39,668 bases of DNA from a virus: IMG/VR virus record IMGVR_UViG_3300037069_001198, positions 1 through 39,668 of that record. One strand, given 5' to 3'. The notes beneath the pieces are model-generated. The model saw only the letters and a list, made by a program, of their open reading frames with translations, made no database searches and had not been told where the DNA came from. This document shows, in pieces, positions 2,127 through 37,222 of the stretch. The stretch's first letter is position 1. Every line of letters begins with the position of its first letter. A program made the translations under genes and the position numbers.

Positions 2127-2507
2127 ATGGCCGAGAAGATAATCCGTGTACTGCTAGATGACATGGAGGGCGGAGACGCTGAGGCCACCGGGACTGTGCG
2201 GTTCGGCCTAGACGGAAAGTCCTACGAGATTGATTTGAGTGAGAAGAACCAGGCCAAACTCCGCGGGTGTCTGCAGCCGTTCATCGACAACGCGCGCCCC
2301 GCAGGCGGGAAAGCCACCAAGCAGCCGGTGCAGCGCAGCGGCGGTCCCTCGGGTTACGGCCGGGAACAGTTAGCGGCGATCCGGGACTGGGCTCGCCGGA
2401 ACGGCTGGCCCGAGCTCTCCGATAAAGGCCGAGTGCCAGCCGAGGTGCTAGCGGCTTTTGAAACCCAACCCACAGGAAACGGTCAGCCGCAGTTCTCTTC
2501 CACCTAG
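2127..2507 (+). CDS. lsr2: Lsr2-like nucleoid-associated protein
   Basis: A 126-residue Lsr2 homologue, close to the usual size of about 112. The N-terminal half shows the dimerisation domain pattern (LLDDMEGGDAEATGTVRFGL, then YEIDLS). After a linker rich in Gly, Lys and Gln, the C-terminal half carries the DNA-binding domain (REQLAAIRDWARRNGWPELS, DKGRVPAEVLAAFE). The usual RGR minor-groove hook reads KGR here. Lsr2 proteins bridge AT-rich DNA and silence foreign genes in actinobacteria, and phages also encode them. The start is fixed by AAAGGAGG at 2113-2120. Likely roles are control of the lysogenic state or modulation of host silencing; which one is inference. Confidence 0.93.
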   Translation: MAEKIIRVLLDDMEGGDAEATGTVRFGLDGKSYEIDLSEKNQAKLRGCLQPFIDNARPAGGKATKQPVQRSGGPSGYGREQLAAIRDWARRNGWPELSDKGRVPAEVLAAFETQPTGNGQPQFSST

Positions 2508-2912: not shown

Positions 2913-2987
2913 AGACGTTAGCAGAGTCGGCATCGGGTTAACCGGGCGAACTTCGGCATGCGGCCCGGGGGAGGGGACGGGATATTT

Positions 2988-4202
2988 GTGAAGATTACGC
3001 TAGCGGCCTGGGGAAGCCGGGGAGAGTTTGAACCACTCGCCGCCATTGGCCGCGAACTACTCAAACGCGAACACGACGTACAGATAGCCGTCGCGCCCGA
3101 ACTACTAGAACTAGCTGAAACGGCCGGCATATCGGCGGTTCCCTACGGGCCGGATTTACAGGATATCCTCAACCTCTACCGTGACTACTGGACCTGCCTC
3201 TTCCGCACCCCCTGGAAGGTCGCCACCCTCAAGAAACTGGGCGACAAGATGGCCCGATCCATCGAACAAGGCCGCAAAACAGTCAACAAAGCGCTCCTAT
3301 CCCTAGCGGACGGGTCCGACCTGCTATTGACCGGCATGAACTACGAAGACGCCGCATCAAACGTCGCCGAATACTACAACATCCCCCTCGCAACACTGCA
3401 CTGGTTCCCCATGAGACCCAACACCCAACTTCTCCCCATCTTCAGCAAACCAGCAATGACAGCATTCTTCTGGGCTCAATGGAAAATGGAGAAAGCCGAA
3501 GACCAACAACGCCTCGAATTGGGCCTACCGAAAGCCACCAAACCCTCCGCGCAAAGGATCGCCGAACGCGCACTAGAAATCCAAGCCTACGATCCGGTGT
3601 GCTTCCCCGGGCTAGCGCAAGAATGGGACCGGCCATTCGTCGGATCTCTCGCAATGGAACTGCCCACCGACGCCGATGATGAAGTTGCCTCTTGGATCGC
3701 CGGGAAGCCCCCGATTTTCTTCGGGTTCGGCAGCATCCCCGTAGAATCCGCGCCCCACACCATCGCCATGATCCAAGAGGTTTGCGAGCAGCTAGGTGAG
3801 CGTGCCTTAGTGTGTGCCGGATTGAGCGACTTCACCGTCTCCGACACCGAAAACCTCAAAGTGGTGGATGCCGTGAACTTCGCCACCGTATTCCCCGCCT
3901 GCAAAGCCATCGTCCACCACGGAGGCGCCGGAACCATGGCCCTCGCGCTAAGGGCCGGCGTACCCCAGGCGATCCTGTCCACCGACATCAACCAAACACT
4001 ATGGGGAGTCCAGATTAAACGGTTGAAGTTGGGCACCTCCCGAAGGTTCTCAGCCGCATCAAAGAAAAACCTAGTCAAGGATCTACACGCCATCCTCGCG
4101 CCCGAATATGTGAGGCGAGCCCAGGAAGTTTCGGCCAAAATGACCCAGCCATCTGAGGGCGTCGCGAAAGCCGCCGACCTAGTGGAAAATTACGCACGTT
4201 AA
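2988..4202 (+). CDS. Family 1 (UGT/MGT-like) glycosyltransferase
   Basis: A 404-residue GT-B-fold glycosyltransferase. The N-terminus KITLAAWGSRGEFEPLAAIG is the acceptor-side start of this family. The C-terminal donor-binding signature HHGGAGT lies at residues 310-316 and is followed by RAGVPQAILSTDINQ. The closest matches from memory are mycobacterial enzymes that glycosylate surface lipids such as glycopeptidolipids and phenolic glycolipids. GTG 2988 is chosen over ATG 2958 because GAGGGG lies 8-13 bases upstream of it and the conserved domain starts there. The gene lies beyond the lsr2 terminator and is convergent with the lysis genes, so it needs its own promoter, which I could not place. 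Surface glycolipids are phage receptors in mycobacteria, so a prophage-expressed copy could change the host envelope. That role is inference. Confidence 0.88.
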   Translation: MKITLAAWGSRGEFEPLAAIGRELLKREHDVQIAVAPELLELAETAGISAVPYGPDLQDILNLYRDYWTCLFRTPWKVATLKKLGDKMARSIEQGRKTVNKALLSLADGSDLLLTGMNYEDAASNVAEYYNIPLATLHWFPMRPNTQLLPIFSKPAMTAFFWAQWKMEKAEDQQRLELGLPKATKPSAQRIAERALEIQAYDPVCFPGLAQEWDRPFVGSLAMELPTDADDEVASWIAGKPPIFFGFGSIPVESAPHTIAMIQEVCEQLGERALVCAGLSDFTVSDTENLKVVDAVNFATVFPACKAIVHHGGAGTMALALRAGVPQAILSTDINQTLWGVQIKRLKLGTSRRFSAASKKNLVKDLHAILAPEYVRRAQEVSAKMTQPSEGVAKAADLVENYAR

Positions 4203-4950: not shown

Positions 4951-5233
4951 GCTTCACCAGATACTTCAGCTTCGCCCTCCACACCGGCTGACCGGAGACC
5001 CAGTTGACTTCCTCCACCACCCTGTTGTTCGACAAGAACGACGCCACAGCCGTCAAAGCCGCCGTAACCCCCGAGAACAGGGCCAGATGCGCAGCCGACA
5101 CACTCGGGAAAGTCACCTCAAACAGAGCAATGATTGACACGGCCGCGGTAGCAGCCGCCACGATCTCCTTACGGATCTGGGGAAGGTTGCGGACAACGGC
5201 CTTCGCCCCGTCGACAAAACCCTTAAAACTCAT
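4931..5233 (-). CDS. Holin with two membrane segments
   Basis: A 100-residue protein with two hydrophobic segments: EIVAAATAAVSIIALFEVTF near residues 23-42 and a second around 48-67 (AALTAVASFL). A charged C-terminus follows. Size, topology and position directly after lysin B match the holins of mycobacteriophages, which permeabilise the cytoplasmic membrane to release lysin A. ATG 5233 is preferred: AGAGGA lies upstream and the ATG shares one base with the lysin B stop (TGATG). A TTG one codon earlier is a weaker option. Confidence 0.75.
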   Translation of the reverse strand: MSFKGFVDGAKAVVRNLPQIRKEIVAAATAAVSIIALFEVTFPSVSAAHLALFSGVTAALTAVASFLSNNRVVEEVNWVSGQPVWRAKLKYLVKHDPGRT

Positions 5234-6183
5234 CAATATCCTCTCTGATGCGGAAGCGAGTTACCGATCGCCAGAGCGTCAGTAATGCAGGCGATCATCT
5301 GCGGCGTGTACTGCCAATGAGGAGCTCCGGTACCCTCAGCAGCGAAAACCATCCCATTGATGATCTCCTCCACCATCCCCACCGGAACAAACAACGACTC
5401 CGCAATCTTGATGGTGTTCATAAAAGACGGGTTCTGAACCTCATTAAAAATGAGATTCCCCACCTTTCCAGGGCTCGCAATAGCGGTCCAAGGATTAGTC
5501 CCAACAGGAGCACTCGAATATATATCCGCGTAATTCGCGCACGACATCACCACCGGCTTACCATCAGGAGCCGGATAATTCGTCTGCTCCTCAGTCAGAT
5601 CCATAACCCCGCCGATACCGCCGGTAACATCGCCGTCCTGATTCTTCGGCACCGGCATCCCCGCCAAAAAGGTATTCCCATTCGCGATACCCGGGCACCT
5701 GAACGGATCCCCAAAGTTATAGATCCGCCAAATGTAAGGCAACAAGTAATGCAGAGACCCAGTCGGACTCAGAATGTCCAGAACCCACACCTGGTCAGTG
5801 ACCATCGCGCCCTGCGAATACCCAGTAATCAGAATAGCCAAGCCCTCATAGGAGCCGCGCTGCTTCCGATAATTCTCCGCATACCACTCCAAGGTGGCAA
5901 CCGTGTAACTACGACCCAACTGGACCGAAGGCCACATCGGTATAGTCGCCGCGGGATACCCGATACACGCCGACGCCCACAAACCATCCTGGGCGTTCGC
6001 CAAACCACCCACGATGCCCGACGAGAACCCCGCCCACCAGCCCGAGCCGTCATCCAAAATAGGCTGCGGAGGAAACGGAGCCCCAGGATAAGCGGTCCCC
6101 TCGACCGCGACAATCAAGCCGGCGGGACTATAAGCCAGTCCATTTCCTTGGGCGCGAATACTAACGAATTCGCTGCTAGTCAC
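5233..6183 (-). CDS. lysB: Lysin B, mycolylarabinogalactan esterase
   Basis: A 316-residue alpha/beta hydrolase of the cutinase-like lysin B family, which cuts the ester link between mycolic acids and arabinogalactan and so detaches the outer membrane during lysis. The nucleophile elbow GYSQGA places the catalytic serine at residue 123, after the strand LAILIT. The likely catalytic histidine is His289 in GAPHWQY, matching the usual C-terminal H-x-x-Y segment, and the acid is probably the Asp in NYADIYSS. The length is somewhat above the phage norm of about 250-300. The start is a GTG overlapping the stop of the small upstream gene (GTGA). It lies between lysin A plus a small gene and the holin, a standard order. 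Confidence 0.92.
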   Translation of the reverse strand: MTSSEFVSIRAQGNGLAYSPAGLIVAVEGTAYPGAPFPPQPILDDGSGWWAGFSSGIVGGLANAQDGLWASACIGYPAATIPMWPSVQLGRSYTVATLEWYAENYRKQRGSYEGLAILITGYSQGAMVTDQVWVLDILSPTGSLHYLLPYIWRIYNFGDPFRCPGIANGNTFLAGMPVPKNQDGDVTGGIGGVMDLTEEQTNYPAPDGKPVVMSCANYADIYSSAPVGTNPWTAIASPGKVGNLIFNEVQNPSFMNTIKIAESLFVPVGMVEEIINGMVFAAEGTGAPHWQYTPQMIACITDALAIGNSLPHQRGY

Positions 6184-6515
6184 TTAGCAGGAGCCCTGTA
6201 GTTCTTGCTCTGCACCTCATCGTCATTGATGTGCGGGTTCTGCTGCACCACCCACTTAGCGACAGTGAAAACGCAGTCCCACAAGTCGTAGTCGTTACCG
6301 TCTGCGAGCTGCTGCTTACGAGTCAGTAGCTTCGTCAGAGTGGTGAGCTGATCCCACCGCGAAGACGTCGTATTACTAACCTCGGGAAATGCATAGTCCG
6401 CACCCAGCCCGAACATGTGAGCGTCATACAGCATCGCCGCCAGCGCGTAACGCAAAGCCTGGCCGTTCCCATCAATACCATTCGACTCGCTGAACACATC
6501 CTGATCCGCGGTCAT
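6180..6515 (-). CDS. Small protein between lysin A and lysin B, unknown function
   Basis: A 111-residue acidic, soluble protein that I do not recognise. It reads as mainly helical, with no signal peptide or membrane segment. ATG 6515 overlaps the lysin A stop by four bases (ATGA), and its own stop overlaps the lysin B start (GTGA), so the three genes are translationally coupled. This tight spacing suggests a late lysis-related role, for example modulation of the lysins, but nothing in the protein shows this. Confidence 0.75.
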   Translation of the reverse strand: MTADQDVFSESNGIDGNGQALRYALAAMLYDAHMFGLGADYAFPEVSNTTSSRWDQLTTLTKLLTRKQQLADGNDYDLWDCVFTVAKWVVQQNPHINDDEVQSKNYRAPAK

Positions 6516-7786
6516 CTCGCAGCCCCATAACCAGCCAGGCCCAACTTCTCGCCGATCTCAGCCAAAGCATCCACAACAGAACGATTATTTATTTGCGGCC
6601 ATCCATGACGTTCACCGTCAGAACCAATAGGCCCCTCAAGTTGATCTAAAATAAAATCCACATCCACTCCAAATTGTCCGAAATCGTCCGCATGCGCTTC
6701 ATTGATGTCGCACTCCACGCCGCCAACCCACTGGTAACCGGCGTTATTTCTCTGCATGATGCTCACGCGGGAATCGATATTCCCACCCGACCACGCCTCG
6801 GTCTGCCACATGTACTTACACACCCCGGCATCCAAAGCCCGCTGACACACGTAATAAGCACCGTAAATGCCCACATAATCAGGGCCGCCCAAAACCGAGC
6901 CGGCACCAGAGAGATAAGCATCGACAACGCCCTGCTGATCCGGCGACTCATCCCAGTCCGCGCTGAAATAGACCACCGGCCTGTAGTCGGCCGGAACGCC
7001 GGGAAGAGAACGAACGTAATCCAGCGCCCACTGCGCGTCAGCGGCACCGCTGTCCTCAAGCATGAACGTGGCATCGGTCTCGAAATTGAAGACCACCTCA
7101 ATGCCGTTATCAACAAGATCGGCGAACTCACCCGGCAGCAGCTGCTTACCGGGAAGGCCCGAGCCGCCGTCATTCAGATAACGGCACACAAAAGAAACCC
7201 CAGCCGCCTTCAAGGCGGCACCCGAGATCCTGCCGCCCGCATAATCCAATCCCCGCGGATAACTCATCGGCTGCCTCCAAGCGGTATCCTCAGCGATCGG
7301 GCCATCAAAAACCCAAAAGTCATTCCAATAGCTACTGGCGAGCCCGGTGATATCCCCAGGCACGGTGCAAACCCCGGAATCGCCGTTGCTCTCCATATCC
7401 CAGCCATCAATCCAGCAGGCCATATGCGAATACGGACCCCCGCCGCCGTGGTGAATAACCACCTTGAGCGGGTAATCCCCATTCAGCATGTCCTGCCGCG
7501 ACACCTGGCGGAAACCACCCAAAGGCCCCGGGAAAGTTTCCGTAGAGAACACCCGCCCCCAGGTCATATCCTCCGGACCATCAATAGCGGCCCCGAGAAC
7601 AATCCCGCACAACCCCGAACAATCCGCGGAAACACCAAAGTTATACGGGTCAAAGCAGCCAGCGTACTCATACTCATCCCCCGGCCCCTGATCGATATCA
7701 GAATGCTGCAAAGGTTGAGCATCAGTGGTCAGCCGGTCCAGAAAAACCCTCTTCGAGAACTCGACGTTACTTCTTAAAAGCGTCAA
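6512..7786 (-). CDS. lysA: Lysin A endolysin: NlpC/P60-like peptidase plus DUF1906-type hydrolase
   Basis: A 424-residue endolysin that degrades peptidoglycan at the end of infection. The N-terminal part (about 1-170) looks like a cysteine peptidase of NlpC/P60 type: Cys56 in ADCSGLCG and His121 in PYSHMACWIDG form a likely catalytic pair. From about residue 176 a DUF1906 (glycoside hydrolase-like) domain begins with YPRGLDYAGGR and continues through VCRYLND, VVFNFETDA, DYRPVVYFSADWD and VGIYGAY. No separate cell wall binding domain is visible; about 25 residues remain at the end. The start is TTG 7786, overlapping the previous stop (TTGA) with GAGG upstream. Confidence 0.9.
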   Translation of the reverse strand: MTLLRSNVEFSKRVFLDRLTTDAQPLQHSDIDQGPGDEYEYAGCFDPYNFGVSADCSGLCGIVLGAAIDGPEDMTWGRVFSTETFPGPLGGFRQVSRQDMLNGDYPLKVVIHHGGGGPYSHMACWIDGWDMESNGDSGVCTVPGDITGLASSYWNDFWVFDGPIAEDTAWRQPMSYPRGLDYAGGRISGAALKAAGVSFVCRYLNDGGSGLPGKQLLPGEFADLVDNGIEVVFNFETDATFMLEDSGAADAQWALDYVRSLPGVPADYRPVVYFSADWDESPDQQGVVDAYLSGAGSVLGGPDYVGIYGAYYVCQRALDAGVCKYMWQTEAWSGGNIDSRVSIMQRNNAGYQWVGGVECDINEAHADDFGQFGVDVDFILDQLEGPIGSDGERHGWPQINNRSVVDALAEIGEKLGLAGYGAAR

Positions 7787-9785: not shown

Positions 9786-12116
9786 TTAGACTTTCAGAAT
9801 CTCAATGTTGTGGATGCAGCCCCACACGCCGCCCGAGTTGCCGGTCGTTTGGGTGGCCGCACCATCAGATGTGCTGGAATTCTTGGTGTTCAAACATATT
9901 CCGCGGCTGGACGCGACCGCACTGTTTACCAGCGTGTATCCGGCCGGCGCGGAACCCCACGTGCTGGTGAAGTTGTTGATGCTGTCGCCGCCAGCGAACA
10001 GGTTCAGAATCAGCGACGCGCCGCTGGTGTCACTCATTGTTATCGAGGTGGTGGCCATGTTTTGGCCGCCCGCGTTATCGGTGACCGAATGGCCGCCGAC
10101 AGGTGTTGTCGCGTTGGCGCCGCTGATAACAATGGCCATCATCGTGCTGGCGTTAGTCCAGGTGCCAGATGTGTGGTTCGTGGCTGTGGCAATGGTCCGC
10201 GACACCCGCGACGAGTTAATACCGGTGGTCGACGTGTCCACACTGGTCCACGTCGGAACCGTGCCGCCCGCGCTGGGCTGAGACGGTGCGGTGCTAGACC
10301 GGCTGCCGCGGTAAGCGAAAATAATGATCAAGTCACCAACCGCATGGGTCGGTATCGTCACCGTGGTCGCCTGCGCGATGTTGACGGTGCCCTTAATCGA
10401 CGGGTTGGTGACGACCTTGGTGGCGGTCGCCGACAACACACCCGCACCAGACAAAGCTGCCGCGCTCGCGAACTTGGGATACCTTGCCGCCGACAACACA
10501 CCAGCACCAGCAAGGGCCGCCGACCGCAAGTAATGCTCTACCCCAGTAGCCGACAGCACACCATGCCCAGCCAACGCCGCACTACTCAAGAACCTCTGAA
10601 TCGCTGTAGCTGACAGCACACCAGCCCCGGCAAATGGGCTGGCAATGTTGCCGAACCCATGCGCCACAGCCGACAAGGCTCCGCTACCGGAGAAGGCCGC
10701 AGCGACAACCGGAGCCGCACTTGCCGACAAAGCACCGATCCCACCGAATGCCGCAGGATCATGGATCGAATACAGATGAGCGGATGCCGCCAAAGTCCCC
10801 GAACCCGACAAGGGTGCCGCACAACCCTGATGAGCTGCGGCTGCCAGAACACCAGCACCCGATAGTGCCGGCTTGGCGGCAGCCGCTGCACGCGCGGTCA
10901 ATACCCCATGCCCGTGGACGAACGCGCCAACACGGTCGGCCACTATCGCCGACAACGCACCTGCACCAGAGAAGGCCGGGTTGCTGTGAGCGATCTTCAC
11001 CAAAATAGCCGACAGCACACCATGCCCAGCCAGTGCCGGATTAATGAAGCCTTGTGCCACCAGTGCGGATAAGGCGCCGTGCCCACTGAACGGTGCAACT
11101 GGTTTGCCGCCAACGAGGACATTGCTGATCGTTACCCAGTCGATTGGCCCCGATGCGAGCCCGTTGGTGGCGGTAAAGGTTGTGGTGCCAAGCGCTTCGT
11201 TGACAACCATCGAGGAGTTGTTATTAGAAACGTTATAGCGGTTGGTTCCCCCCGTTGACGTGAGGCCCACATTGCCGAAACTACTAACCCCGCCGATCAC
11301 ATCGACCGCCAGCGTCGTATGCGGGCAGGTAACAGTATCGGAGTGAACGGTGGCGCTGCCCGAAGGCGTGAAAGATGTTGATGCCGACTGGATAGCGCCA
11401 ACATTGAGATAGGTTTCGCACGATCCGGCGACGAACGGACCAGCGCCGCCGCTCCACGACGCCACCACATTCTTGGTGCCGTTAGGTATGTTCGCGATGG
11501 TGTAGCGTTCCATTGTCGGGCCGCTCGACCACGCCGAAGCCAGCTTCTGCATAGGCTTGCTGTCATAGGTGACGCCGGTTAATCCGATGGCCTGATCCGA
11601 ACCGATATCAACAATGGCGTAAGCACCGGCCTTGCCGGTATGCGACAGCGTGAGACTTGTCGAACCGAAACCAGCCACGTTAGACGACTCCGCGTCAAAC
11701 ACAGGAATCATCGTCAACAATGCCGACAACACACCAGCACCAGCCAACGCGGGAGTTGAGGGTATCTTCACCGACGCGGTCGCCGTCAACACACCGTTAC
11801 CCGACAATGCTGTCGGGACAGATAAAGCGGCGTGCGCCGACGCGGTTAAGGCACCAGAGCCTCCGAAATCCACGCCGAAATGGGGGGCGCCCGCTGCGTC
11901 CCAAGCATTAACCCGCAGCCGGCCACGGCCAGCTAGATCGACGTCTACGAGCATCCGAACAGTCAGAACAGCTGAGGCGGTGCCGCTACCGTGCAAAACG
12001 GTCGGAATCGGAGTTGCGTGCTTTTCCGCAACCGCCGTTAAGGAGCCGCTGCCAGACAGGCTGACGCCGTCTAGGAAAATTGGGGCTCGCCAAGCGATCC
12101 CGCCGATTTGGGTCAC
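9786..12116 (-). CDS. Minor tail protein with GxGxLxA repeats
   Basis: A 776-residue tail protein. A repeated motif of the form (L/F)-(S/A)-G-x-G-x-L-(S/T)-A occurs about 18 times: six copies in residues 1-140 and twelve in about 350-565, roughly every 20 residues. Between them (about 140-345) and at the C-terminus (about 570-776) are two beta-rich domains. The C-terminal one begins with TTVTIPTHAVGDLIIIFAYR, as in many actinophage tail fibre proteins. The repeats probably form a rod or shaft between binding domains. GTG 12116 overlaps the stop of the esterase-containing tail gene (GTGA). A receptor-binding role is likely from position and build but is not shown. Confidence 0.8.
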   Translation of the reverse strand: MTQIGGIAWRAPIFLDGVSLSGSGSLTAVAEKHATPIPTVLHGSGTASAVLTVRMLVDVDLAGRGRLRVNAWDAAGAPHFGVDFGGSGALTASAHAALSVPTALSGNGVLTATASVKIPSTPALAGAGVLSALLTMIPVFDAESSNVAGFGSTSLTLSHTGKAGAYAIVDIGSDQAIGLTGVTYDSKPMQKLASAWSSGPTMERYTIANIPNGTKNVVASWSGGAGPFVAGSCETYLNVGAIQSASTSFTPSGSATVHSDTVTCPHTTLAVDVIGGVSSFGNVGLTSTGGTNRYNVSNNNSSMVVNEALGTTTFTATNGLASGPIDWVTISNVLVGGKPVAPFSGHGALSALVAQGFINPALAGHGVLSAILVKIAHSNPAFSGAGALSAIVADRVGAFVHGHGVLTARAAAAAKPALSGAGVLAAAAHQGCAAPLSGSGTLAASAHLYSIHDPAAFGGIGALSASAAPVVAAAFSGSGALSAVAHGFGNIASPFAGAGVLSATAIQRFLSSAALAGHGVLSATGVEHYLRSAALAGAGVLSAARYPKFASAAALSGAGVLSATATKVVTNPSIKGTVNIAQATTVTIPTHAVGDLIIIFAYRGSRSSTAPSQPSAGGTVPTWTSVDTSTTGINSSRVSRTIATATNHTSGTWTNASTMMAIVISGANATTPVGGHSVTDNAGGQNMATTSITMSDTSGASLILNLFAGGDSINNFTSTWGSAPAGYTLVNSAVASSRGICLNTKNSSTSDGAATQTTGNSGGVWGCIHNIEILKV
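10420..11070 (-). repeat. About 60-base coding repeat array in the tail gene
   Basis: The larger block of GxGxLxA repeats. On the plus strand GCCGACAACACACC or close variants recur at an exact 60-base step near 10428, 10488, 10548 and 10608, and in looser form on to about 11070. A second, more diverged block of six copies lies at 11712-12089. Neighbouring units match best in the four steps 10428-10620, which suggests recent tandem duplication there. Confidence 0.8.
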
Positions 12117-14929
12117 GGCTTCCGCACCCTGACCAGCACATAGCCATCAGATCCAGGCCCGGAAGCGTCAAACGAGAAAGCACGAACGCCGCCCGCTCCG
12201 CCGCCTGGTATCGAGCCCGACTGACCGGCAACGACGTCATGACCACCGAAATAGGGTGCCCCGTTAAAGATCATAGTTCCAGGCCCCCCACCGGTTACGT
12301 CTCTACTATTGCCCGACTGGCCGCCCCCTTGGCCACCCGCCGCCATGACATCCGCCATTCCCGTCGCCGAAACAGACGAGGCCCCACCGTTACCCCCGGG
12401 ACCACCAGCGGTGCCGAATCCACCGGCCGCACCAGCAACCCCACCAACGCCCACCGTGATGTTCAGGGCTGTCGCCGACCCGGAAATGTCGGTACCGAAC
12501 ACCTTGGTTGTCGCCACCCACGTTCCAGGCATTCCGCCCTGAGAGTCGAAGATCGGCTGCGAACCCTCCGAGCCGGCGCCCGCACCGAGCGCAATAATGT
12601 CTACCAAGTCGCCGGATGCGATCCACGACGGCAGCGTGAAAGTATAAGTGCCGCTTGTCAGCCAGCTGTCGCCAACCGGCCCCTGATACGAGGTAGCGAG
12701 GCTTGTGGCCAGCGCTAAGGCGGCCTGGGCGTCCTGCGCGGTCTGCGACAACATGGTGGCCACCTGCGAAAGTTGAACACCAGTCAAATTCTGTTGGGAT
12801 GCAGCCGATCCCAGGCTATCCAACAAATTCTGATAACTGGTCAGCATGTCGGCCTGCCCCTGCGCCCCTTGCACACTCGAATGGGGCAGTGACGGAATGG
12901 CTTCAATGTTTTTCAGCAAGCTAGCGTCGAGGAACCCGGTCGGTTCAAGCATCCCCGCGTCGAACCAGACTGTGCCCGTTGTCATAATATCTGGCGATAT
13001 GACGAGCGCTATAGCTGCGGTAGCCGAACCCTCGGGGGTGACGAAATCGGCAGACAGAGTGTTCCAACCCGCCGAATCACCCACCGGGGCAATGATAGTG
13101 GCGCCCGGTGTAACATCCGAGCCGCCGATGAACGCGATAAAGTTGCCGGACGCGTCATAACAGTTGATGCCCAACTGGATTTGGTCGCCCGTCGTTGCGG
13201 GTGCGTTAGTCCATTCGACTTTGCCGCTGACCGAGACAACTTCCAGCGGCTGAACCGGGAACTGCACCCCCTCAATCTGTTTGCGAACCCCGACCGTGTC
13301 GGGGTAGCCATCCAGGATGGTGTTGATGTGGTCCCAGATGATCTGCCAACAGGTCCGGTGGTCCCCGTCTGCGAGATTCGGTTGCACTTCCCAGCAGGCC
13401 GTGTTGTGCGCGGACGTGGCCGACAAAACGGCCTGGATCTCCTGCCCCGTAGGGGACAACAACATCTTGGCCATACCGCCCACAAAATCCAAGGCGTTGA
13501 ACGACTTTGCGTCTATCGAAAATTTCAGCATCGACCGGATGGTGTACGGCGACGCGGGGGCACTGAGCAGCGTGATGTCGTTGGGGTCAAGAGGCCGATC
13601 AGAGGCCGGCAGGCTGGATATTTCGTCGCCCGGCGCGTAAGTGACGCCAGTCAGACTGTCGTTAGCCGGGTAGGTTCCGGCCTGAAACGATATCTCCCAC
13701 CACTTGTCAGTTGGTGTATCTTTCAATGTGGGCGTGACACACCCGAACCCGGTCCCCGCATAGTTGGTGGTGCCGGTGCCGAATGCCGGTGTGTTGACCT
13801 GGCGGCGCATGTTGCCGACGGCGCACCCGAAAAGCAGGTCGTTGTAACGATCCTGGAGCACACCATGTCTCAGCTCATCGAGCGCACCGCTGATCACAGC
13901 CCCCCCTTGGCTGTGGCCCATGAGGATGAACGGCCCCGGGCGGGACCGGATCGCCTTCACCAGGTTCGCTGTCCCCTGCGCGAGGCTTTCACCCATCGGG
14001 TACACGGCAGCCTCGTACGGCACAACATAGAATTCGGCCTTGGACCAGTTCAAAAGACTTGTGTCACCGGGCACTTGGCCATCCGTGTTGACCGTGATGT
14101 TTGACGTTTGTTGCGTCAGACGCACTCTTGGATCCCCCAGGTTGGGGCCAGCGGCCTGCGACAGCCCCGGCGTCAGCTCCCAGGTGCCGTCACACCAATA
14201 TATGGTGACTGGTGCTCTACGCAGAGTGCGGATGCAGCCCGCATCACCCCACGTACCGCCCTCAGATCCCGGCCAGTCCCAAATCCACTCACTGTGACCG
14301 AGAAGACTAGCCGCGCTGGCGAACTCGCTATCAGGCTGCACATTGGCCGCAGCGCCAGGGGTTAACGCCTGCAGCGTGTGCGCGGGAACCGGCGTGCCGC
14401 TAGTCATAGCCCCCGCGCCAATCAGACTGGTCAACAACTGATTTATCGCCGGATCCGTCACAAGGGTGGTAACCCCAGTTACGGTGCCCCCACCCGAACC
14501 GCTAGTATCACCCGTGGTCGTCTGCGTGCCAGTCCCCAGCCCACCGCCGCCACTACCGCCCCCGAGGCCCCCAAGACCGAGACCGAGAGAATTCAGCAAG
14601 TCCTGGAAAGCGTTGCCCAAAAACGCCAAAGGGTCGGCAGGGCTGCTGCCGCTAGGGTTAGTGTTGAACGGATCGGTAAGAGCGTTAATGAAATCCGTAA
14701 ACGCCTGCTGAAGGCCGCCCAGCAGATCGTTAATCGGACCCGCAAGGCCACCCAAGCCCAAACCGTTCAGGATCGCATTAACAACATCCTGGATGATTGT
14801 GAGCGGCAACTGGGCGAACATCTGCACCAAAGACTGCAGACCATTCGGAATCCCGGCCCCGCCGCCAGTACCGGCAGTAGGGTCGGTGTGAATACTCGGA
14901 TCCGGCGTTGAGGCAGCCGGAAAAGTCAC
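12113..14929 (-). CDS. Minor tail protein with esterase (cutinase/lysin B-like) domain and glycine-rich tip
   Basis: A 938-residue virion protein in three parts. Residues 1-170 are rich in Gly, Leu and Asn with hydrophobic helices. About 220-530 form an alpha/beta hydrolase: FILMGHSQGGAV is a clear nucleophile elbow with Ser340, preceded by VPYEAAVYPMGES, and the likely histidine lies in WDHINTILDG. This is the layout of cutinase-like and PE-PPE/lysin B-type esterases. About 540-690 look like a carbohydrate-binding-type beta domain (EWTNAPATTGDQI, WFDAGMLEP). The end (about 750-938) is a glycine-rich domain ending in SDGYVLVRVRKP, typical of phage tail tips. A mycolate- or lipid-cleaving activity on the tail would help entry through the outer membrane. 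That function is inference. Confidence 0.82.
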   Translation of the reverse strand: MTFPAASTPDPSIHTDPTAGTGGGAGIPNGLQSLVQMFAQLPLTIIQDVVNAILNGLGLGGLAGPINDLLGGLQQAFTDFINALTDPFNTNPSGSSPADPLAFLGNAFQDLLNSLGLGLGGLGGGSGGGGLGTGTQTTTGDTSGSGGGTVTGVTTLVTDPAINQLLTSLIGAGAMTSGTPVPAHTLQALTPGAAANVQPDSEFASAASLLGHSEWIWDWPGSEGGTWGDAGCIRTLRRAPVTIYWCDGTWELTPGLSQAAGPNLGDPRVRLTQQTSNITVNTDGQVPGDTSLLNWSKAEFYVVPYEAAVYPMGESLAQGTANLVKAIRSRPGPFILMGHSQGGAVISGALDELRHGVLQDRYNDLLFGCAVGNMRRQVNTPAFGTGTTNYAGTGFGCVTPTLKDTPTDKWWEISFQAGTYPANDSLTGVTYAPGDEISSLPASDRPLDPNDITLLSAPASPYTIRSMLKFSIDAKSFNALDFVGGMAKMLLSPTGQEIQAVLSATSAHNTACWEVQPNLADGDHRTCWQIIWDHINTILDGYPDTVGVRKQIEGVQFPVQPLEVVSVSGKVEWTNAPATTGDQIQLGINCYDASGNFIAFIGGSDVTPGATIIAPVGDSAGWNTLSADFVTPEGSATAAIALVISPDIMTTGTVWFDAGMLEPTGFLDASLLKNIEAIPSLPHSSVQGAQGQADMLTSYQNLLDSLGSAASQQNLTGVQLSQVATMLSQTAQDAQAALALATSLATSYQGPVGDSWLTSGTYTFTLPSWIASGDLVDIIALGAGAGSEGSQPIFDSQGGMPGTWVATTKVFGTDISGSATALNITVGVGGVAGAAGGFGTAGGPGGNGGASSVSATGMADVMAAGGQGGGQSGNSRDVTGGGPGTMIFNGAPYFGGHDVVAGQSGSIPGGGAGGVRAFSFDASGPGSDGYVLVRVRKP

Positions 14930-34495: not shown

Positions 34496-37222
34496 TCACA
34501 GGACCAGGACGTCCCGTTCGCAATAGACCGACATTGTGGCCTGATCCCGCGTCCAATAAGCGTTCACCGCCATGATCGCGGCCGGCACAGCGTCAATACG
34601 CTTAGAAGACCTAACACGGTGCGGCTTCTCAGGCATAATCAGATCAGGATCGGAAGTCTTATACTTCGCCTCGCAGGCATCGAAACAAAACCGGGCCAGC
34701 GGATTAGCATGATGACGGAAAATACCCTCAGTCACCATGTCAAAGACACGGTGCATCCCATCCGACATGGTGTTGAACTGGTTATCGTAAGCGTAAATGT
34801 CCTCCACGCCGATCCCCGTCTCCAAACGGATCCGCTGAATCACCGGCTCAGACATATGCTTATCCACATCCCCGCCCAAAATGACGAAACGATGCGAATC
34901 AGCCTTAATATCGGCGTACAACTGCTCAAAATCCAGCACATCGCCGGGGGTGACAGTCAACCAGCCGCCGCGAACAAACTCCGTCGTAAACCGGCCATTA
35001 TTCAACCGATCCAACTTCTCCACCGCCGCCTCAGGCATCCAATGACGCCACACCACATCAACCCCATAAGAAGGATCAGCAGCCGGAAACAAATAACAGA
35101 TCGAACACAAATCCTGCTTAGCCGCCAAGTCCAGCCCAAACCAGCACTCACAACCCTCAAACGACCTCAACAGCGCATCATTGCTGTCATAGACAGTGCT
35201 GCGGTTGGACTTCTTATCCCACAGGAACATGTTCATCCACCGCACCGTCGAAGACTGCCACTGATTCAGCCGGTACTGGCGAAACGCCATCTCCGCGATC
35301 GGATTAGCCTTCGCCTCCAACGCCTGCTTACGCAACGCCTCCAAACTCAGAAAATCCCCCAGCGCCGGGTTAGGATGCCACCAATTATTCTCATCCCACG
35401 GATCCGCATCCTTCGGCGTGTTACGCATAAACACGAAGATGTGATGATGCTCGGGGGCATCGGGGGTCTCCAAAACCCGCTCCATCTGCTTATGCATCTG
35501 GCCGGCGAAACCCTCAGTATCGTTCCCCGCCGTCGTGCTAGCGATCATCAAAGGCTGTAAACGAGCCCCCGACCCCATACCCGTGCGCAGTGAATCCCAG
35601 AGATCGCCACCGTCCCACGCAAGAAGTTCATCGGCACCGACACCAGATGGGTTGCTGCCAAGAGCAGACTTAGCGTCAGCAGAAATGACCTCATAAAACG
35701 AGTGGGTTTTCTCATGGTAAATCCGCTTCTTATAATCACTGACCTTCAAATGCTTACTCAACACGGGCGAAAACTTCACCATCTGAGCCGCGACATCAAA
35801 AGCGAGCTTCGCCTGCTTAATATCACGGGCCACGCCATAAACCTCGGCCGATTCCTCGCCATCTGCGATCAGGAGGTAAAGCATGACCCCGGCAAGCATC
35901 TCCGTTTTCCCGGACTGACCGGTGGGCATGAGATCACTGCCGGCAAGAAAGAATCCCGACCGGATACCAATACACTTGGTCTGTTTGACACCCACGGGCT
36001 CGATAGAGACGATCGAATCCAACTGGTTCTTACTGGTGGACCTGCGTTCCTTTAGGGCCTTGCGGGGCATCCTGTGAGGATTGGGCAGCCCATCCGCCGC
36101 CGTGAAGCAGACTTCGTGGTACTCGCCATAGCCCTTAACGCGCTTGACGGCTCGGCGAGTGTTGTAGCCGACAGAACGGGCCAGGAACTCAACCGAATCA
36201 GCAATCTGCGCACTTTTCTGGCAGAAGCCATAGGTGAGCGTAGTGGCCTTTTCGGACGCCCAGCCATCGGTGTCCATCAGACCGCGCAGCAGGTCCAGGC
36301 GATCCGCCTCCGACGCCAACAGATACCCCTCGGGCACATGCTTGTTGTGGAGCACCCCCAGCGCCCGCAACTGCGTCATGAGTTTCTGGACGTAGAAGAC
36401 CTGCGACAAGTTAGTCGGGCGCGTCTCATAGCCGGCCGCCTCAAACTGCTCCCGCATGAACGGCTGATCATCCTCGTGCGCGGTGATAGCCCCGGACTTC
36501 GCCGTCCCATCGCCCAACCACGCCCCAAGGCAATACGGGTCTACGGGAAGCTTTCCCGAATCAATCTTGAGAGAGCCGATAGCGGGTAGGGCGTTCAGAT
36601 AGACGCCACGACCATCCTTCAGCGGGCGTTCCAACATGTCGCCCGTCGTCACAACGTACTTGGCGTATTCGGCCTTCAGTCGCGTCCCACCCGGCTGCCG
36701 AACCGCCCCCCGCGGCTTCGTGCGGTCTTGAATAAGCCAATCGTGGTCGACGCCCACCTCAAGAGACTTCTTGAAGCGGCTGGTGACACGGTAAGCCATC
36801 TCCGTGTAAACATCCGAAACGAACTCAACCGCCTCGGGCTGGCCCTCCAGATTGAACACTTGATCCCCGGGCCGAATATCCGCGACGGTTGTCCAGCCAC
36901 GATTAGCCGTGAGAACAGGGGTATCAGCGACAATGGCCTTGCGGGCAACCTCGATCCATGCGATCTCATACCTACGCTTGTAGCTTTGATACTCATCCGA
37001 CCACACCGCTTTCCCGAATAGCGGTCGAATGATGCCGTCCCTTTGCCACTCAGCCAGGAGGAACTTCTTCCTCGCATAACGGCCCTTAGTGTGCTGCAGG
37101 ATCTCCTCGAAGAACGCCTGAGCCTTATCCGCCCGCGGAGCACAAAAGTGCTCGCCCCGGCCCTGGCACTCAACATCATCGAAGGTGTAGCCGCACACCG
37201 GCACCTTAGGCTTTCTGGGCAC
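34496..37222 (-). CDS. terL: Terminase large subunit interrupted by an intein
   Basis: A 908-residue precursor; removal of residues 96-436 leaves a 567-residue terminase, a normal length. The terminase packages DNA into the head (ATPase) and cuts concatemers (nuclease). The P-loop is split: ...EVARK (to residue 95) and SGKTEMLAG (from 437) join to ARKSGKTE. Walker B with the catalytic Glu is GVGADELLAWD (Asp531, Glu532). The RNase H-like nuclease part contains WFGLDLAAKQD, VILGGDVDKHM and, near the C-terminus, KRIDAVPAAIMAVNAYW. The small subunit gene is 1.7 kb away, beyond a block of plus-strand genes, instead of adjacent. Confidence 0.95.
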   Translation of the reverse strand: MPRKPKVPVCGYTFDDVECQGRGEHFCAPRADKAQAFFEEILQHTKGRYARKKFLLAEWQRDGIIRPLFGKAVWSDEYQSYKRRYEIAWIEVARKAIVADTPVLTANRGWTTVADIRPGDQVFNLEGQPEAVEFVSDVYTEMAYRVTSRFKKSLEVGVDHDWLIQDRTKPRGAVRQPGGTRLKAEYAKYVVTTGDMLERPLKDGRGVYLNALPAIGSLKIDSGKLPVDPYCLGAWLGDGTAKSGAITAHEDDQPFMREQFEAAGYETRPTNLSQVFYVQKLMTQLRALGVLHNKHVPEGYLLASEADRLDLLRGLMDTDGWASEKATTLTYGFCQKSAQIADSVEFLARSVGYNTRRAVKRVKGYGEYHEVCFTAADGLPNPHRMPRKALKERRSTSKNQLDSIVSIEPVGVKQTKCIGIRSGFFLAGSDLMPTGQSGKTEMLAGVMLYLLIADGEESAEVYGVARDIKQAKLAFDVAAQMVKFSPVLSKHLKVSDYKKRIYHEKTHSFYEVISADAKSALGSNPSGVGADELLAWDGGDLWDSLRTGMGSGARLQPLMIASTTAGNDTEGFAGQMHKQMERVLETPDAPEHHHIFVFMRNTPKDADPWDENNWWHPNPALGDFLSLEALRKQALEAKANPIAEMAFRQYRLNQWQSSTVRWMNMFLWDKKSNRSTVYDSNDALLRSFEGCECWFGLDLAAKQDLCSICYLFPAADPSYGVDVVWRHWMPEAAVEKLDRLNNGRFTTEFVRGGWLTVTPGDVLDFEQLYADIKADSHRFVILGGDVDKHMSEPVIQRIRLETGIGVEDIYAYDNQFNTMSDGMHRVFDMVTEGIFRHHANPLARFCFDACEAKYKTSDPDLIMPEKPHRVRSSKRIDAVPAAIMAVNAYWTRDQATMSVYCERDVLVL
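35915..36937 (-). mobile_element. Intein with LAGLIDADG endonuclease, class 3 type
   Basis: Residues Ala96 to Gln436 of the terminase precursor (341 residues). Block A is DTPVLTANRGWTTVADIRPG, but the first residue is Ala, not Cys or Ser. Block B reads GVDHDWLI (His160, Trp162). Block F has Cys417 in TKCIGI, and block G is LMPTGQ followed by Ser437, with Thr434. Trp, Cys and Thr at these places are the WCT set of class 3 inteins, which use the block F cysteine as first nucleophile. The last residue is Gln instead of Asn. The two endonuclease motifs LGAWLGDGT (232-240) and LRGLMDTDGWA (312-322) show a homing endonuclease that looks intact. Confidence 0.88.

Follow-up and report, generated by a model that had tools for sequence, protein, structure and literature searches.

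The window (the whole stretch of DNA that was analysed, a complete 39.7-kb virus record that is a single contig and possibly a fragment) contains portal, capsid, tail, lysis, terminase small subunit and Lsr2-like genes, together with a large terminase gene (terL) which begins at a GTG start codon and encodes an intein-containing precursor of 908 amino acids (Table 1). It was assigned as TerL by PHROG (phrog_9, E=1e-121) and by the Pfam TerL_ATPase and TerL_nuclease families; the ATPase match begins at residue 437, the nuclease domain covers residues 595-888 and a LAGLIDADG_3 match at residues 311-371 lies slightly below the Pfam cut-off. The best matches for both TerL and the head protease were from cluster E mycobacteriophages (Kostyavirus) and, because of these matches and the gene set, we infer that the window belongs to a phage, cluster-E-like and Kostyavirus-related, that infects Actinobacteria akin to mycobacterial hosts.

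Elsewhere in the window, the Lsr2-like nucleoid protein is encoded at 2127-2507 (+) and a glycosyltransferase family 28-like / EryCIII-like protein at 2958-4202 (+). A minor tail protein of 938 amino acids (12113-14929 (-)) has an internal domain that resembles PHROG family 102 (“endolysin”) and bears a weak similarity to PE-PPE; family 102 has a separate member at 5233-6183, and a further endolysin is encoded at 6512-7786.

Table 1. Features of the intein-containing terL gene, with window positions
Feature	Position	Strand	Basis
terL precursor	34496..37222	-	PHROG and Pfam
N-extein, residues 1-95, ending ...WIEVARK	36938..37222	-	Alignment with TerL from phage NoSleep and IMG/VR relatives that lack the intein
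Class 3 intein, Ala96-Gln436, 341 aa, in-frame (assigned almost with certainty)	35915..36937	-	Translation, alignments, model
HINT splicing domain, N-terminal part, blocks A and B	36632..36937	-	Profile match to MchDnaB1 6RIX residues 1-80; model; end approximate
His160 (intein His65, B:10), aligned to catalytic His65 of MchDnaB1	36743..36745	-	Invariant 50/50
Trp162 (intein Trp67, B:12), W of WCT triplet	36737..36739	-	Invariant 50/50
LAGLIDADG (DOD) homing endonuclease domain, motifs LGAWLGDG and LRGLMDTDG	36053..36550	-	I-DmoI and PI-SceI fold matches; limits approximate
Asp238 (intein Asp143), catalytic Asp position, first LAGLIDADG motif	36509..36511	-	Asp in 49/50
Asp319 (intein Asp224), catalytic Asp position, second LAGLIDADG motif	36266..36268	-	Asp in 50/50
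HINT domain, C-terminal part, blocks F and G	35915..36019	-	Match to MchDnaB1 residues 111-145; model
Cys417 (intein Cys322, F:4), putative initiating nucleophile and site of the first branch	35972..35974	-	Invariant 50/50; aligned to MchDnaB1 block F Cys; role from PMC7664689
Thr434 (intein Thr339, G:5), T of WCT triplet	35921..35923	-	150/150 distinct homologs
Gly435-Gln436, atypical penultimate and last intein residues	35915..35920	-	Gln-ended in 2/150 distinct homologs
Ser437, +1 nucleophile, start of the C-extein; most relatives without the intein have Asn	35912..35914	-	Alignment
C-extein SGKTEML...: remaining Walker A, ATPase and nuclease domains	34496..35914	-	Pfam, PHROG, alignment

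Assignment of the terL insert to class 3

The original prediction was of a class 3 intein occupying 35915-36937, and translation of the gene bears out these limits and each of the residues that were named (Ala96, Trp162, Cys417, Thr434, Gly435, Gln436 and Ser437). Judged by the defining features of the class (PMC3196547, PMC7664689), the assignment holds up well, with Ala at position 1, the WCT triplet, the His at B:10, a +1 nucleophile and a predicted HINT fold all present. Position 1, as set by intein-free alleles and by alignment, is Ala96, with no Cys, Ser or Thr there.

MchDnaB1 and other class 3 inteins were used as references for comparison, and both ends of the terL intein, including the block F Cys, aligned with MchDnaB1 (6RIX, E=3e-13). 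In intein numbering, Ala1, His65, Trp67, Cys322 and Thr339 are collinear with MchDnaB1, the numbers of His65 and Trp67 being identical in the two proteins, and all of these except Ala1 are recorded as invariant across an alignment of 50 homologs. The splicing domain of MchDnaB1 (PDB 6RIX/6RIY) is thus the same as that in the window, collinear and with identical catalytic residues, but MchDnaB1 is a mini-intein without an endonuclease, has DnaB as its host protein and ends in His-Asn. An AlphaFold model of the terL intein (pLDDT 93.4, pTM 0.91) matched PI-SceI, itself an intein with a LAGLIDADG endonuclease, over the whole intein in a Foldseek search (E=1e-20) and MchDnaB1 with a TM-score of up to 0.80 by target length, while the solved structures nearest to its splicing domain include class 3 DnaB inteins, among others.

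Chance resemblance was ruled out by 722 tblastn matches of the intein to phage records (at E<=1e-5), by the 6RIX match at 3e-13, by the 50-homolog alignment and by the existence of relatives with an empty ARK-x-GKTE site, and membership of class 1 or class 2 was ruled out by the Ala at position 1 together with the F:4 Cys and the WCT triplet. On its sequence features, then, the insert is almost certainly a class 3 intein. The description of this class as rare does not stand, however, as 1701 class 3 inteins were counted in nr in 2020, 82.5% of them with LAGLIDADG (PMC7891396).

Insertion site and the +1 residue

The intein had been predicted to fall exactly between the ARK and the SGKTE of Walker A, and its intein-free relatives, which read ARK-x-GKTE, fix both junctions there. 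One related contig (L008) is identical to the window, L009-L011 have this intein too (81% identical, in exteins that are 78% identical), and L012-L020 are intein-free, reading ARK[N/Q/C]GKTE with no residue extra or missing. An alternative end to the intein was rejected, as no other plausible terminus lies nearby and Gln436 is set as the last residue by the empty-site alleles.

The +1 residue is Ser437 in the window and Cys in L009-L011. Across 70 TerL loci, the x of ARK-x-GKTE was nearly always Asn in those intein-free alleles in which the motif could be located; two had Gln, and one allele, present on two contigs, had Cys. The two intein alleles, those of the window and L009, had Ser and Cys. 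Because of this difference, the +1 nucleophile appears to go with the intein, Ser or Cys taking the place of the Asn that is usual in the P-loop, and this change would be an example of an intein leaving its mark on the mature enzyme. The +1 Cys, the state seen in L009, was called unique to a single class 3 intein in 2016 (PMC5222942).

The TerL of L012/L013 (also listed as L213/L214) reads ARKCGKTE and so is intein-free with a Cys where its relatives have Asn, which may mark a pre-adapted target or a scar of intein loss; with regard to the latter, divergence of its flanks from L014 is only slightly raised (17/90 just upstream).

Probable mobility of the intein and selection upon it

It had been suggested that an apparently intact endonuclease points to recent or active homing. 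The catalytic Asp residues, purifying selection and a recombination boundary do support mobility in the lineage, but not a recent arrival of the window's own copy. Because the divergence between the window and L009 is about the same in the intein as in the exteins, the window intein appears to belong to an old lineage. Values of dN/dS between these two alleles (81% amino acid identity) were 0.053 for the intein, 0.046 for the endonuclease, 0.034 for blocks F-G and 0.098 for the exteins, all of which are rough as dS (1.8-2.3) is near saturation. The endonuclease is probably active in the window lineage.

The recombination boundary comes from comparison of L009, which has the intein, with L016, which does not. 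Between +420 and +1420 nt downstream of the site the two share 99.9% identity, against 91% over the 0-420 nt beside the insertion and ~73% upstream of it; for the whole 2.6 kb that follow the site, identity is 98.6%. Because of this pattern, a recent recombination event appears to have ended just downstream of the intein and to have taken in both the intein and the Cys codon, as homing predicts: the endonuclease would cut an intein-free terL at the empty site and repair would copy the intein with flanking DNA, including the +1 nucleophile codon, so that the usual P-loop Asn would be swapped for Ser or Cys. With near-identical downstream DNA, L009 (plus) and L016 (minus) make a convenient pair on which homing into a terminase gene could be tested.

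The same boundary might instead reflect ordinary mosaic recombination which happened to fall in terL, the intein itself being inherited vertically without homing. In keeping with this, no second boundary was found upstream, where divergence between L009 and L016 continues through the neighbouring genes as far as the comparison reached. However, the stepwise climb in identity outward from the insertion (73%, 91%, 99.9%) and the selection on the endonuclease argue for homing, as does a second, weaker case, in which divergence between the window and L014 is 31% up to +360 and 20% beyond, unlike that of the intein-free pair L012/L014 (10.5% vs 10.4%), although the split point was picked after seeing the data. 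We consider inheritance without homing to be rather unlikely, if deserving of some weight.

The Gly-Gln ending and probable competence for splicing

The window intein has neither the terminal Asn nor the penultimate His that are typical of most inteins, although these are not class-defining. Among 150 distinct homologous inteins from phage, viral and genomic contigs, the last residue was Asn in 148 and Gln in 2, both Gln inteins being of the window lineage, and the penultimate residue, which is Gly in the window, was His in 141. The block F His is also absent, with a two-residue gap in its place that is common to a few others in the alignment of 50. A scan of IMG/VR for the pattern TGQxGKTE gave 27 matches, in which the only terminases were the 4 contigs of the window lineage, and no class 3 intein ending in Gln, tested or reported, was found in the literature examined. 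Inteins with a C-terminal Gln can splice, and in some of those in class 1 this residue slows the cyclisation step (PMC4031507); the inteins of Pab Pol II and the Chilo iridescent virus (CIV) RNR share this residue and are treated under the class 1 mechanism (PMC4031507).

In our reading, the locus very probably holds a class 3 intein that is able to splice and has a LAGLIDADG homing endonuclease nested inside it, set in the TerL P-loop of a cluster-E-like actinophage. The junctions, class 3 residues, domain anatomy, conservation, empty-site alleles and recombination boundary were read from sequence, and the chemistry was inferred, following the published mechanism of Cys F:4 attack, +1 transfer, last-residue cyclisation and acyl shift (PMC3196547, PMC7664689). 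Cys417, set up by His160 and Thr434, would attack the Lys95-Ala96 bond and take over the N-extein, which would then move from Cys417 to Ser437; cyclisation of Gln436 would free the intein, and an O-to-N shift would join ...IEVARK to SGKTEML..., completing Walker A. The empty-site alleles and the selection make it highly likely that the intein is competent for splicing, while the absence of His both at the penultimate position and in block F, together with that of the terminal Asn, counts against this. As a naturally occurring class 3 active site that has replaced all three of the residues presumed to help in the last step, it would allow the requirements of that step to be tested on a wild-type protein.

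Alternatively, the intein could be a slow or conditional splicer, in which the class 3 steps would run as far as the branched intermediate, Gly-Gln would slow release, the motor would become active late in infection and the residues would be kept for timing. This would fit the retention of Gly-Gln in both the window and L009 despite a 19% difference in intein residues, and also the Bethlehem RDF intein, in which a penultimate Gly is functional and its change to His altered precursor accumulation, so that the residue can tune splicing (PMC5050341). Against it, splicing of the CIV RNR intein is more efficient when Gln rather than Asn is present (PMC4031507), and AceL NrdHF, a class 3 intein which resembles that of the window in its penultimate Gly and in lacking the block F His, splices within minutes (PMC7891396). 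AceL NrdHF differs from the window intein in being split, in having MCT rather than WCT, in ending with Asn and in having a compensating Arg at B:11; such compensation was ruled out in the window intein, which has Asp there (intein residue 66). On balance, slow or conditional splicing seems unlikely. More doubtful still is a fuller version in which cyclisation of Gln without either assisting His would be tuned to delay P-loop assembly until late infection, and the need for a +1 nucleophile would have permanently changed the P-loop Asn to Ser or Cys.

That the intein is decaying, with poor splicing or cleavage only, in a defective or recombinant genome is very improbable for, although the two accessory His residues are lost along with the terminal Asn and class 3 Arth_1007 is a known dead case (PMC3196547), the frame and catalytic residues are intact, purifying selection is strong on both the splicing and endonuclease domains, several contigs carry the same intein, and this terL, with conserved exteins, is the sole large terminase seen in the window.

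Relation to other terminase inteins

The prediction of a class 3 intein in the TerL P-loop was correct, but the kind is not new, as such inteins occur in Eureka and other cluster E phages and class 3 inteins were already known in phage terminases, as mycobacteriophage TerL1-c/-e (Kelley et al. 2016, PMC5050341). Eureka gp8 and its cluster E relatives share with the window the class 3 residues, a LAGLIDADG endonuclease, the terminase family and the location in the P-loop; the Eureka precursor is 54% identical to that of the window, with exteins at ~62% and the intein at only 37%. The Eureka intein lies between ARKNGK and TE, three residues downstream of the window site, and ends in Thr-His-Asn, unlike that of the window; the intein of JuicyJay (Omegavirus) is one residue further than the cluster E site. 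The cluster E and JuicyJay positions agree with sites a and b as set out in the text of Kelley et al. 2016 (PMC5050341), whereas the window site, between K and xGK, fits neither TerL1-a (between Lys and Thr), nor b (one residue from a), nor c-e in that text.

At the equivalent P-loop position (between QK and S/T-GK), TerL class 3 inteins without a penultimate His were found in L023, L058, L104 (an Actinoallomurus contig) and L110 (a Piscicoccus contig), but these end in Cys-Asn or Gly-Asn, unlike the Gly-Gln of the window; a fifth such terminase, L079, keeps His-Asn. For comparison with the site in these four, the native x is Ser in the intein-free Streptomyces phage Dubu. In both ML trees the window lineage stood alone on a long branch, apart from the same four, but the AU test did not reject a common clade with them (p 0.19), nor a single clade of the window lineage with the cluster E inteins (p 0.21); the first tree had placed the window lineage with L022, which is long-branched, and carried a program warning. 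What appears to be new here is the Gly-Gln ending and the shifted P-loop site, in an otherwise known kind of class 3 terminase intein.

In the TerL of Mycobacterium phage mushipu (L208, OR464710), the cluster E intein has LMDTNG as its second motif and an internal deletion, so its endonuclease is probably dead in an otherwise intact intein. Class 3 inteins were also seen in L048 and L154, before the TGK of a DYK-TGK motif which is more like a RecB/Cas4-like nuclease motif than a P-loop.
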